Below, piece by piece: positions 45,638 through 50,236 of a stretch of DNA of 64,000 bases. Source of the DNA: Halostagnicola kamekurae (GTDB lineage: Archaea > Halobacteriota > Halobacteria > Halobacteriales > Natrialbaceae); assembly GCF_900116205.1 (NCBI RefSeq), contig NZ_FOZS01000001.1, forward strand, positions 744,001 through 808,000, in the 5' to 3' direction. The notes beneath the pieces were generated by a model. The model made no database searches, had not been told where the DNA came from, and saw only the letters and a program-made list of their open reading frames with translations. The position numbers and the translations under genes are program-made. How positions within the stretch are numbered: the first letter of the stretch is position 1; each line of letters begins with the position of its first letter.

Positions 45638-47251
45638 CTACCCGGATGCAACTGCCGGTCGTGCGCCGATCGACGCCGGGGTCTCGGTCTGGGTGGTGCT
45701 CGTCGAGCCGTCCGATTCCTCGATGATGTACCGCTGGCCGACCATCGGATCGAGAAGCCTGTCGACGGGGGCGTGGTCGTCCGTCAACACCGGCGTATCG
45801 CCGGTTTCGGGTTCGTCCATGTAGTTGTCGATGGCCGGCTCGAGGTCGACGGGCAGATCGCGCTCGTCATTTCGACGCTGTAACTCCGCCTGCGTGAAGT
45901 CGGTTTCCTCGTTCGTCGCGACGAGTTCGATGTTCTGTATACTGTTCGAGCTCGACGTTCGGAAGCTATAGACGTCGGGGAAGGCCTGCTCGGCCGTCTT
46001 GTACTGGGCCCGGTAGAACTCCCCCGCGGAGCCGCTCGGCCCGGAGATGACGTTCGCGAGGAGGATACCGTCGTCGGTCAGCCGATCGGAGATCAGTTCC
46101 ATGAACTCGACGGTCGTCAGGTGGAAGGGGACCTGCTCTTTCTTGTAGGCGTCGAGGACGATCACGTCGTATTTGTCGTCGGGTGCATCCTTGAGGAAGC
46201 GTCGGCCATCCTCCTCGTAGCTGGTCATGTTCTCGCCGTGCTCGAGTCGGAAGTACTCCTCTGCGGCATCGGTCACTTCGCCGTCTATTTCGACGACATC
46301 GACGTCGACGTCGTACTCGTCTTTAAACTCCTTCGGACCGGTATACCCGCCCCCGCCGATGAACAGGACATTGTCTACTTCGTCCATGTCGTCGGTCATC
46401 GCCATCGGGAGGTTGAAGTACTTCGTGTACTCGAAGACGTGTCGATCCGGCTCCTCGAGGTCCATCGCGCTGTGTCTGGCCCCGTCTAGGTACATGGTTC
46501 GGATCTCCCCGTCGTCGATCACCTCGAGTTGCTGCTGGTCGGTCTGGGTCTGGTAGACCACGTCGCCCCTGTGGTCGAACGCGCTCACGCTGCCGACCAG
46601 CGAGCCGACCAGCAGCAGGGAGACGACCACCGCCGTGCCGGTCGTGGATCGGGAGACGTCGGGGAGCGTGATCGCGAACGCGGTCGCGACGAGGAGAAAG
46701 CCAAACAGCAGGCTGATCGTCTCGATACTGAACTCGGGAATCAACACGAACGTCGTGGCCGTGCTCCCGAGGATACTCCCGATGGTGCCGACGGCGTAGA
46801 CGTGTCCCGAGGCTTCGCCGATCCCCTCTTTGTGGCTGAGTTCCGCCGCGTACGGGCTGATAAAGCCGAGCAGGTACGTCGGCGGACCGAACAGAGCGGT
46901 GACCGCCGGCAGGGACGCGTAGCGCGCGCCGAGCGGTATCGTCGACGTGTAGGTCAAGAGCAGATCGCTCCCGTAGATCAACACGGCGATATAGATCGCG
47001 GTCCCGAAGAGGATCCACGACATCTCTCGAGTGGTCGCACGCTTTGCTCGCCTCCCGCCCTGCCAGTAGCCGAGACTGAGCGCGGCCAGACAGACGGTGA
47101 TGATGCTGCCCCAGGTGTAAATGCTGCTTCCGAACTGGGGAGCGATAACTCGGCCCGCGAGGATCTCGATACCCATACTCACGATACCCGAGACGAAAAC
47201 CGCGATCTCGGGTTTCGACAACCGGTACGGCGCGAGCGACCGAACGTCCAT
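45638..47251 (-). CDS. Membrane protein fused to spermidine-synthase-like domain
   Basis: Residues 1-220 carry about seven membrane spans (for example EIAVFVSGIVSMGIEILAGR, then SIIYTWG-like SSIYTWGSIITVCLAALS). Residues 245-470 form a Rossmann methyltransferase-like spermidine synthase domain. That domain contains NVLFIGGGGYTGPKEF (motif I), VEIDGEVTDAAEEYF and YDVIVLDAYKKEQVPFHL (the usual DxYD/E region). The C-terminal 65 residues are a Thr/Ser-rich tail. Such fusions are widespread; whether they transfer aminopropyl groups is unproven. The ATG at 47251 (MDVRSLAPYR) is preferred over the TTG at 47257. Confidence 0.85.
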   Translation of the reverse strand: MDVRSLAPYRLSKPEIAVFVSGIVSMGIEILAGRVIAPQFGSSIYTWGSIITVCLAALSLGYWQGGRRAKRATTREMSWILFGTAIYIAVLIYGSDLLLTYTSTIPLGARYASLPAVTALFGPPTYLLGFISPYAAELSHKEGIGEASGHVYAVGTIGSILGSTATTFVLIPEFSIETISLLFGFLLVATAFAITLPDVSRSTTGTAVVVSLLLVGSLVGSVSAFDHRGDVVYQTQTDQQQLEVIDDGEIRTMYLDGARHSAMDLEEPDRHVFEYTKYFNLPMAMTDDMDEVDNVLFIGGGGYTGPKEFKDEYDVDVDVVEIDGEVTDAAEEYFRLEHGENMTSYEEDGRRFLKDAPDDKYDVIVLDAYKKEQVPFHLTTVEFMELISDRLTDDGILLANVISGPSGSAGEFYRAQYKTAEQAFPDVYSFRTSSSNSIQNIELVATNEETDFTQAELQRRNDERDLPVDLEPAIDNYMDEPETGDTPVLTDDHAPVDRLLDPMVGQRYIIEESDGSTSTTQTETPASIGARPAVASG

Positions 47252-47390
47252 TGTCAATTCTCACTCGCCCCGTCGTTGTGTACTTGTTGGAAGTGGCATC
47301 CGCGAGGTACCTCTGCGATCGGGGCTGCCGTCGCTCACGAACCGGTGGAGTGGGGCTGCGATGAGAACCTATCGTGCGGCTCGAGGCCGG

Positions 47391-48359
47391 CTACCGTCGC
47401 CGCTCCGAGAGCGCGCGTTTGGGCAGGATCTGGATCTCGGGATCGTACCGGACGCTCGCTTCGACGCCGAAGACGTCGGCCAGCAGCTGTTCGGTCACGA
47501 TCTCTTCGGGCGGCCCCCAGTCGTAGAGGACGCCGTCGTGGAGCGCGATCAGGTAGTCTGCAAAGCGCGCGGCCTGTGAGATGTCGTGTAAGACCACCGC
47601 GACGGTGACGTCCTTTTGCTCGTTGAGCTGGCGAACCGTCTCGAGGACGCGAAACTGGTGGTGGAGGTCGAGAAACGTGGTCGGCTCGTCGAGCAACAGG
47701 ATGTCGGTATCCTGGGCCAGCACCATCGCGATCCAGGCGAGCTGTTTCTGTCCGCCGCTGAGCTGGCCCAGTTCGGTGTCTCGAAGGTGGTCGACGCCGG
47801 CGAGATCGATCGCCCGGTCGACCGCCTCGCGGTCTTCCGCGGAGATGCCCTCGAAGAACCCGCGGTGTGGGTACCGGCCGTAGTAGGCCAGATCTTCGAC
47901 GGTGATGCTTCCGACCGGATCGTTCTCCTGGGAGAGCAGTCCCAGCTTGCGCGCGAGTTCTTTCTGCCCGAACGACTGGAGCTCGTCGCCGCGGAGTCTG
48001 ACGACGCCTTCCTCGGGCTCGAGGTGGCTCGAGAGCGCCTTCAACAGCGTGCTCTTGCCGCTTCCGTTGGGGCCGACGAGCGCGGTGACCTCCCCTTCGG
48101 GGATGTCGAGGCGCTCGCAGTCGACGATCGTCTCGTCGGCCGTCGGGTAGCTCAACTCGAGTCGGTCGCCGACGAGGGCGCTGTCGACGACGACGCCGTC
48201 CTCGTCGATCGCCTGCTCGCGCGTGGGTTCGTACTCCTCGGACGACACGTCCGGCATCGAGTTCGAGTCTGTCGCGGTCGTCGGTCGGTCGTCGGCCGCC
48301 TGTGCGTCTGTCGACTCGGAGGTCGCGGTCCGTCCGTCGTTTGCGTTGTCTCGGTTCAT
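47391..48359 (-). CDS. ABC transporter ATP-binding protein, iron-siderophore/cobalamin type
   Basis: The 322-residue ATPase powers the permease encoded just upstream. Walker A is GPNGSGKSTLL, the signature is LSGGQKQLAWIAM, Walker B is DILLLDEPTTFLD, with the H-loop in VVLHDISQAARFA. The subfamily match is FecE/FhuC/BtuD. An acidic N-terminal extension of about 65 residues precedes the domain. The ATG at 48359 overlaps the permease stop codon by one base (TAATG), so the genes are translationally coupled. The substrate-binding protein is not in the window. Confidence 0.92.
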   Translation of the reverse strand: MNRDNANDGRTATSESTDAQAADDRPTTATDSNSMPDVSSEEYEPTREQAIDEDGVVVDSALVGDRLELSYPTADETIVDCERLDIPEGEVTALVGPNGSGKSTLLKALSSHLEPEEGVVRLRGDELQSFGQKELARKLGLLSQENDPVGSITVEDLAYYGRYPHRGFFEGISAEDREAVDRAIDLAGVDHLRDTELGQLSGGQKQLAWIAMVLAQDTDILLLDEPTTFLDLHHQFRVLETVRQLNEQKDVTVAVVLHDISQAARFADYLIALHDGVLYDWGPPEEIVTEQLLADVFGVEASVRYDPEIQILPKRALSERRR

Positions 48360-49468
48360 TAGAGCTCACCCATCGAACGCTGTTTTCGCATCAGATAGAG
48401 GAAGTACGGCCCGCCGATCAGGCCGGTGACGACGCCGACCGGCATCTGGGTCCCACCGAGCGCGAGGCGTGCACCGACATCGGCGGTGACCATCAGCGCC
48501 GGGCCGGCGAACAGACAGCCGATCATCAGCTGTCGGTAGTCGCCGCCGATCGTGTTTCGGACGATGTGGGGGACGACGAGCCCGAAGAAACTGACGATTC
48601 CCGCGACGGAGATGGCGACGCTGGCCGCCAAGATCGCGACGGCCGACAGCAAAAACCGGACTAACTCGATGCGCATGCCGAGCGAGCGAGCCGTCTGCTC
48701 GCCGAGCAACAGGAGGTTGAGCTGTCTCGAGCCGGCGAGCGCGATCGCGATCGCTAACACGGCCGGAAGGATCGCGATTCTGACCTCCGGCCAGCCGGTT
48801 CCGGTGAGCGAGCCGGTGAGCCACGAGATCGCGGTCTGGACGATGCCGAGATCGTCGGCGAAGAAGAACAATCCCTGCTGGAGGGACTGAAAGACCATGT
48901 TGACGATGACGCCGGCGAGGACGAGCCGAACCGGGCTCGTTCCGTTCTTCCACGCGATCACGTAGACGATCAGGAACGCGACCGTTCCGCCGATAGCCGC
49001 GATGAACGGGAGAAACGGCGCCAGCCCGCTGAAGACGACGAGCGTCGCGAGGACGGCGAATCCGGCGCCGGCACTGACCCCGAGAATGAACGGACTCGCG
49101 AGTTCGTTGCGCGTGACCGCCTGAAAGATCGCACCCGAGACCGCGAGCGTCGCGCCGGCGATGATCGCGACGAACACGCGCGGGAGGCGGATGCTCCAGA
49201 CGATGAGTTCGCCCGCTTCCATCTCGGGAAGTTCGGTCCCGAACAGAAAGCCGGTCCAGGCGTCGAGGTTGAACAGGATCGTCGGTTCGGTCACCGCTCG
49301 AGCGACCTCGAGCGTCGTCATCGAGTACGTTCCGAAGTTGACCTGAGCGAACCCGGCGACGATGGTGATCAGCGTGCTCGTCAGACAAAAGAGGACGAGC
49401 GGCCTGGTCACCCACCCGTCACGGTCGCGGACGATCGGCCCCGTTTCAGCCGAATTCGATCCTGCCAT
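48359..49468 (-). CDS. FecCD-type ABC transporter permease, iron-siderophore/cobalamin type
   Basis: The 369-residue permease has nine to ten membrane spans. LPRVFVAIIAGATLAVSGAI (about residue 90) is the conserved FecCD entry, and GIVSFFGLVVPHIVR and GVVTGLIGGPYFLYLM are the C-terminal coupling segments. The ATG at 49468 (MAGSNSAETG) is placed 7 bp after a palindromic operator (49475-49490), whereas the longer ORF to 49558 would run through it. It heads a two-gene operon. Substrate is probably Fe3+-siderophore or cobalamin; operator type favours iron. Confidence 0.92.
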   Translation of the reverse strand: MAGSNSAETGPIVRDRDGWVTRPLVLFCLTSTLITIVAGFAQVNFGTYSMTTLEVARAVTEPTILFNLDAWTGFLFGTELPEMEAGELIVWSIRLPRVFVAIIAGATLAVSGAIFQAVTRNELASPFILGVSAGAGFAVLATLVVFSGLAPFLPFIAAIGGTVAFLIVYVIAWKNGTSPVRLVLAGVIVNMVFQSLQQGLFFFADDLGIVQTAISWLTGSLTGTGWPEVRIAILPAVLAIAIALAGSRQLNLLLLGEQTARSLGMRIELVRFLLSAVAILAASVAISVAGIVSFFGLVVPHIVRNTIGGDYRQLMIGCLFAGPALMVTADVGARLALGGTQMPVGVVTGLIGGPYFLYLMRKQRSMGEL

Positions 49469-49474
49469 TTCATC

Positions 49475-49500
49475 TTTAGGGATGCCTAAAACATCCTTAA
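49475..49500. promoter_or_regulatory. DtxR/Idr-like operator at the start of the iron ABC operon
   Basis: TTTAGGGATGCCTAAA (49475-49490) is a perfect inverted repeat with 6-bp arms (TTTAGG/CCTAAA) and a 4-bp centre. A further half-site CCTTAA follows at 49495-49500. The arm TTAGG..CCTAA is the core of DtxR/IdeR-type sites, and haloarchaeal Idr regulators belong to that family. It lies just upstream of the permease ATG, where binding would block a leaderless start. Confidence 0.7.
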
Positions 49501-49618
49501 CAGTTGCGATTCGGACCGAAATCGGCAAGCCAGTATCACGGTATCCGGTGGCATACATCGCGTGGAACGACGACTCACTGTGGCTGCGAATTTTGTCGAT
49601 GGCGGTGGACGAACGCGC

Positions 49619-50236
49619 ATGGTTCAGGTTCGTATGCTCGAGGGCGACCGAACGGATCGCCTCGAGGCGCTGAGCGACGGCGTGTTCGCGATCGTTCTCA
49701 CGCTGTTGGTGCTGCAGTTTCGCGTTCCGAACATCCCGGCGGACCGCGTCGGGGCCGAGTTACCGGGTGCACTCGAAGCCCAGCAGACGGTGTTTTTCAG
49801 CTATCTGCTCTCGTTTTTCGTCGTCGGCATCTACTGGATCATCCACCACAACCTGTTTCAGGAGATCGTGCGTCACGATCGGCTGTTGCTGTACGCGAAC
49901 CTGCTATTCTTGCTTGCGATCTCGTTTCTGCCGTTTCCGACCGAACTCCTCGGCGTCTACAGCACTCGGCTCACCTGGACGCTGTACGCGCTCAACCTCG
50001 CCATGGTCGGATTCGCCCTGACGGCGCTGTGGTGGTACGCCGACCGACGCGGGTTCACCAGCGACGCTATCGACGAGCGAACCGCATTTCTGGTCACCGT
50101 TCGCGGTCTCATCACGCCCGCCGTGTTCGTGTGTTCGATCGGCGTCGCCGCGGTGAACCTCTCGGTCGCGTTTTACACGCCGTTTCTGATCGTCCCGTTA
50201 CAGATCCTCTGGGTCAGACGCTATCAAAAACGCTGA
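49619..50236 (+). CDS. TMEM175-like (DUF1211) membrane protein
   Basis: The 205-residue protein starts MVQVRMLEGDRTDRLEALSDG; RLEALSDGVFAIVLTLLV matches the RxxxFSD-like first helix of the TMEM175/DUF1211 potassium channel family, here with Leu in place of Phe. Five more spans follow, including FFVVGIYWIIHHNLF (the conserved HHNLF-like segment) and LLYANLLFLLAISFLPFPT. Bacterial and archaeal homologues form tetrameric K+-selective channels. The ATG at 49619 is used, with 49634 as an alternative. Confidence 0.83.
   Translation: MVQVRMLEGDRTDRLEALSDGVFAIVLTLLVLQFRVPNIPADRVGAELPGALEAQQTVFFSYLLSFFVVGIYWIIHHNLFQEIVRHDRLLLYANLLFLLAISFLPFPTELLGVYSTRLTWTLYALNLAMVGFALTALWWYADRRGFTSDAIDERTAFLVTVRGLITPAVFVCSIGVAAVNLSVAFYTPFLIVPLQILWVRRYQKR

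Follow-up and report, generated by a model that had tools for sequence, protein, structure and literature searches.

The palindrome TTTAGGGATGCCTAAA, which lies directly in front of a gene for a FecCD-type permease in Halostagnicola kamekurae, raises the question of which regulator it might serve and what the transporter behind it imports. It occupies exactly positions 49475-49490 of the window, by which we mean the whole 64,000-nucleotide stretch of DNA that was analysed. The features of the locus are the following.

49475..49490, strand not applicable: operator palindrome (predicted) TTTAGG-GATG-CCTAAA, exact match, with its 14-bp core at 49476-49489
49495..49500, minus strand: TTAAGG, the probable fecCD TATA box
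49503..49508, minus strand: CGCAAC block, probably a BRE-like element, whose A, C and A vary little or not at all across 48 distinct promoters
48359..49468, minus strand: FecCD-type permease of 369 aa, probably leaderless (PF01032, E 1.8e-83)
47391..48359, minus strand: importer ABC ATPase of 322 aa (PF00005, E 1.2e-31), which has one base in common with the permease gene

The best overall explanation, to which we assign a probability of roughly 0.85, is that the palindrome is the predicted operator of a haloarchaeal DtxR/IdeR-type metalloregulator, a dimer site through which the FecCD-ATPase operon would respond to iron.

The earlier note on this DNA had described a perfect TTTAGG-N4-CCTAAA palindrome, and the match is indeed exact. 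On the minus strand it runs from -22 to -7 of the FecCD start codon (the A of the ATG is 49468), with six intervening bases; the distance of 7 bp previously given is right within the counting convention. Each of the other three matches within the window departs from the palindrome at three positions, and four matches in all is the level of shuffled sequence (mean 3.87). A scan of the genome (4.11 Mb in 16 contigs), proposed at the time as a check, returned 14 exact sites, 14 with one mismatch and 18 with two, and the motif recurs at other iron genes; about 0.05-0.11 exact copies are expected in 4.1 Mb from the base composition, and the reversed control pattern gave none. Once two mismatches are allowed, the control gives more matches than the motif (97 vs 46), which is why two-mismatch sites were treated as background, except for two that pair with a better site. 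When spacer lengths of 0-12 were scanned, N4 alone gave matches; most of these stretches had been chosen for the N4 motif, and the scan is therefore not an independent control. Among 106 sampled haloarchaeal genomes of at least 90% completeness, 105 carry between 1 and 21 exact sites, 861 in total, vs 14 matches (added by hand) to the reversed control: a motif with almost no chance background.

Conservation was followed over 87 FecCD loci, made up of two overlapping sets of 30 (this genome included) and 57 named loci. Fifty-four of them are close, their permeases being at least 73% identical to that of the window, and the exact palindrome stands at the start codon in 53. The exception (L118) has a split alignment that starts at residue 106, and one-mismatch sites only. 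Omitting that locus and six identical promoter sequences, and adding one at 66.6% identity (L117), leaves 48 distinct promoters, in which the four central bases vary (22 spacer forms); the invariance of the half-sites in this set arises partly by selection, exact sites having been required, and 53 of 54 is the unselected figure. Among the 33 more distant loci, 13 have a site with at most one mismatch within 260 bp, one has a site with three mismatches and 19 have none. Several of the 33 carry a binding-protein gene in front of FecCD, and their promoter would therefore lie further upstream. That the palindrome is a product of chance, or has no regulatory role, is contradicted by this conservation as well as by the counts in this genome and in the 106, and by the reversed control; its probability is close to nil.

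The same alignments bear on the start codon. The start taken in the earlier note, 49468 and not that of the longer open reading frame from 49558, is supported: the close relatives align from residue 1 at 49468, and DNA beyond the promoter block is not conserved among them. The permease shares 98% identity with its counterpart in Halostagnicola sp. A56, a close relative.

The genes that carry the motif are mostly genes of siderophore synthesis and uptake. Eleven of the 14 exact sites are in siderophore or iron-regulator loci. Eight are so placed by gene family: the window FecCD operon, a diaminobutyrate aminotransferase, a gamma-glutamylputrescine-synthetase-like gene, two IucA/IucC genes, two Peripla_BP_2 genes, and an operon of DUF7260 and a DtxR-type regulator. 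Three are placed by neighbourhood: a DUF7551 gene next to one of the binding-protein genes, a 394-aa protein in the iron cluster of contig C3, and a further site in that cluster whose target is ambiguous. The remaining three are at genes with no evident iron role, namely a methyltransferase/DUF7090 pair, an asparagine-synthase-like/S24e pair and a sugar transferase/Wzy pair. Among the one-mismatch sites, 11 of 14 are distributed as follows: two at a GNAT and lysine/ornithine monooxygenase operon, one at an SBP_bac_8/BPD ABC system, six at four further binding-protein genes and two at a second FecCD gene. A ferritin-family gene and a Macro-domain gene flank another, and the last two are at an integrase and a ParA-like gene. 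Counted from the genes, sites are found at six of eight Peripla_BP_2 genes (one of the six scoring below the Pfam cut-off); of the two without a site, one is beside a BtuC-type permease and the other at C2:92586. Two of the three FecCD genes have sites, and the third is BtuC.

Two observations on these sites may be recorded here. At the sugar transferase, which is of bacterial type and part of a polysaccharide locus, the exact motif is 7 bp before the gene (L024:5056-5071; C1:494055 of the genome), and iron control of exopolysaccharide is possible. At the second FecCD gene (L031:13583-13908, contig C4), a short ORF of 57-86 aa lies between operator and permease, with its ATG 4-9 nt after the site and its end close to FecCD. 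Short ORFs of the same type precede FecCD in L096, L103, L105, L106, L123, L124, L125 and L127; by eye they resemble the Tat-lipoprotein N-terminus of binding proteins and may be remnants of a lost binding-protein gene.

The relatives of the permease in the PDB are FhuB, HmuU and BtuC; it falls below all NCBIfam equivalog cut-offs, and the best NCBIfam score of the ATPase (FecE, 256.7 bits) is under the cut-off of 375. Against the haloarchaeal BtuC equivalog PRK09535 (cut-off 461) the window permease scores 201.8 bits and the other FecCD copy in the genome 571 bits, which identifies the latter as BtuC. Vitamin B12 was rejected as the substrate, there being this separate BtuC-type permease, with no site in the stretch fetched around it. 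The iron-siderophore class that the earlier note had favoured is supported by the sequence data, the motif marking siderophore synthesis and uptake genes and being absent from the BtuC-type FecCD.

The window operon contains permease and ATPase; a binding-protein gene is absent there and in L072. Among the 24 close named loci (L072-L093, L118 and L120), 22 have FecCD and ATPase followed by a binding-protein gene. A relative of that binding protein is encoded elsewhere in this genome (C1:873-874 kb), with its own exact site three bases before the called start, and two loci with the same predicted operator probably supply the parts of the importer. Behind the ATPase, at 45638-47254, is the gene of a long protein with a spermine-synthase domain (PF01564) in its second half; it is found at this place in L072 also and in none of the other 56 named loci. 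The divergent gene at 49619-50236 encodes a TMEM175-family channel (PF06736). No TMEM175 relative (E 1e-15) was found beside FecCD in the 57 named loci, for which flanks of up to 4 kb, some of them shorter, had been fetched, and regulation of this divergent gene (start about 49619) by the site thus finds no support.

The position of the palindrome within the promoter is fixed. In the alignment of the 48 distinct promoters, the CGCAAC block and a CTAAAC/CTATAC element stand at a fixed distance upstream of it, and we read the order as BRE, TATA box, operator and ATG. The first ATG follows the site after 5 nt in 33 promoters, 4 nt in 12, 6 nt in one and 1 nt in two, the last being the window and L072, where that ATG is out of frame and the in-frame one is at 6. 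Other promoters of the regulon have the same TATA-operator-ATG layout, e.g., ctataatgt-TTTAGGCTGGCCTAAA-aatATG.

The sequence TTAAGG (CCTTAA on the forward strand) at 49495-49500 had been noticed before as an extra operator half-site. The letters are present, and they coincide with the TATA position: under a loose pattern that includes TTAA, 45 of the 48 promoters are TATA-like there (42 under a strict pattern), vs 0-2 of 48 in eight control windows further upstream. The promoter alignment and these controls led us to reject the half-site reading, in which a second dimer or an extended site would be used, and we hold it to be improbable. In its favour, TTAAGG and the first half of the palindrome are one helical turn (10 bp) apart, an exact TTTAGG occurs in this stretch in two relatives (L065 and L117), and seven of the 48 promoters come within one mismatch of it, where the control windows give 0-3 of 48. 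The sequence of an A/T-rich TATA box, however, is in itself close to TTTAGG. Six promoters of this genome do carry two sites, but the spacing here is unlike their 26-36 bp and unlike that of the 19-bp IdeR site.

The six two-site promoters (C1:502328, C3:119077, C4:143851, C4:150856, C4:204265 and C1:1391510, their site starts being 26-36 bp apart) have in most cases an A/T-rich stretch between the paired sites, and in two of these promoters the pair includes a site with two mismatches. They suggest that two-dimer promoters exist besides the one-dimer type.

One of the closest known counterparts of the palindrome is the IdeR/DtxR operator of Actinobacteria. IdeR binds half sites as one dimer, and TTAGGNNNNCCTAA has been proposed as its redefined consensus, according to the available excerpt of PMC8464063; the window's 14-bp core, TTAGG-N4-CCTAA at 49476-49489, is letter-for-letter identical to this single-dimer consensus. 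The full 19-bp two-dimer site, TTAGGTTAGSCTAACCTAA in the same excerpt, is not present at the window operator, which has the inner 14-bp form only. Siderophore genes are targets there (PMC8464063, same excerpt) and predicted targets here. Unlike the actinobacterial sites described there, the operator here is part of an archaeal promoter, between TATA box and a probably leaderless ATG, and one additional outer T/A pair is conserved. The consensus core and the recurrence at iron genes favour the DtxR/Idr-type class put forward in the earlier note, as a prediction.

Such an operator would work as follows. With ample metal co-repressor, most likely iron, a single metal-loaded dimer would occupy the site, which lies between TATA box and the probably leaderless start of the FecCD-ATPase operon, and would prevent polymerase loading or initiation. 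On iron starvation the dimer would leave and the siderophore importer would be made. We infer repression rather than activation from the position of the site. The binder would be a 226-aa FeoA-domain DtxR protein (C1:1091611-1092288), the best candidate among the three proteins of the genome with a match to the DtxR dimerisation domain; for one of the three the match scores under the Pfam cut-off.

In IdeR, the metal ligands of the primary site are Met10, Cys102, Glu105 and His106. The FeoA-domain candidate keeps the residues at the positions of Glu105, His106, His79, Glu83 and His98; unlike IdeR, it has Asp at those of Met10 and Cys102 and so lacks the complete primary-site set. Because of these two residues Fe(II) and Mn(II) are both possible as the co-repressor, and the best NCBIfam family of the protein is MntR (209.7 bits, vs 115.4 for DtxR, both below cut-off). 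A regulator responsive to manganese or to the balance of Mn and Fe, and not to iron alone, is nevertheless rather unlikely, given that the genes marked by the motif are those of siderophore synthesis and import and that a haloarchaeal siderophore permease is iron-responsive, as stated in the excerpt of PMC11349517.

It is likewise a minority possibility that the operator is bound by one of the other two DtxR-type proteins, of 126 aa (C3:143425-143802) and 142 aa (C2:652103-652528). The 126-aa protein is encoded in an iron cluster behind an exact site, and TroR is said to be the main iron regulator of Haloferax; relatives of the 142-aa protein are found in 106 of 106 genomes, as are those of the FeoA-domain protein. 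Close relatives of the 126-aa protein, however, were counted by us in 34 of the 106 genomes (E up to 2e-21), vs 105 with the motif. As for the 142-aa protein, G191, the one genome of the 106 that has no exact motif, retains it at 65% identity, and in three genomes with 2-3 sites (G121, G125 and G138) the similarity is just 48-52%. By eye, both proteins are without most residues at the metal positions of IdeR. The 142-aa protein (L040:3104-3532) also has a cysteine-rich C-terminus (CPDC...CC...C) and may sense something else.

The genome without the motif is informative about the FeoA-domain protein as well. The best match to it in G191 is a 40% relative, which groups in the tree, with full support (100/99), with a second paralogue; G057, G095 and G124 have this paralogue as well as a closer relative. 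G201, of the same genus, has a 55% relative in addition to the paralogue, and five exact sites; when one mismatch is permitted, the counts are 5 vs 4 for the control in G191 and 11 vs 2 in G201. This contrast, a single pair from the two genomes of that genus in the sample, supports the FeoA-domain protein as the binder without proving it. A wider scheme appears to us doubtful, if worth stating: one MntR-like regulator would run much of the haloarchaeal siderophore regulon from a one-dimer operator held in fixed register between TATA box and leaderless ATG, acting after TBP/TFB binding to block polymerase entry and reading the Mn/Fe balance instead of iron alone.

Another close system is the TroR/Idr/SirR network of Haloferax volcanii, which like the present genome combines three DtxR-type proteins with iron uptake genes. 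Work by Martinez Pastor in 2024 reportedly places the motif of that species about 100 nt upstream of start codons, vs 4-6 nt before the in-frame ATG here. According to the excerpt of PMC11349517, which cites Leyn and Rodionov 2015 on this point, a DtxR-family regulon signal precedes all fhu genes and operons of H. volcanii; a paralogous siderophore permease there rises 12.7-fold in iron starvation (same excerpt). As here, the signal stands before siderophore ABC genes and operons, with an iron-responsive permease among them; compared by description rather than by motif letters, it is likely the same as TTTAGG-N4-CCTAAA. In that excerpt the abundance of SirR and TroR, both DtxR-type, is unchanged on iron starvation, which does not bear on their activity. 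A three-domain DtxR protein with a FeoA domain has been assigned as SirR in Haloferax mediterranei (excerpt of PMC11218638).

A DtxR-family signal before haloarchaeal siderophore importers is thus already in print (PMC11349517, in the part available), and with the general system described the gain is one of detail: what is added here is the register of the operator, the genes that carry it in this genome and a candidate for the regulator. For H. kamekurae, the analysis gives the start codon and a promoter map for fecCD, would fix the substrate class of the transporter as iron-siderophore and not vitamin B12, and makes both the regulator and its metal directly testable.
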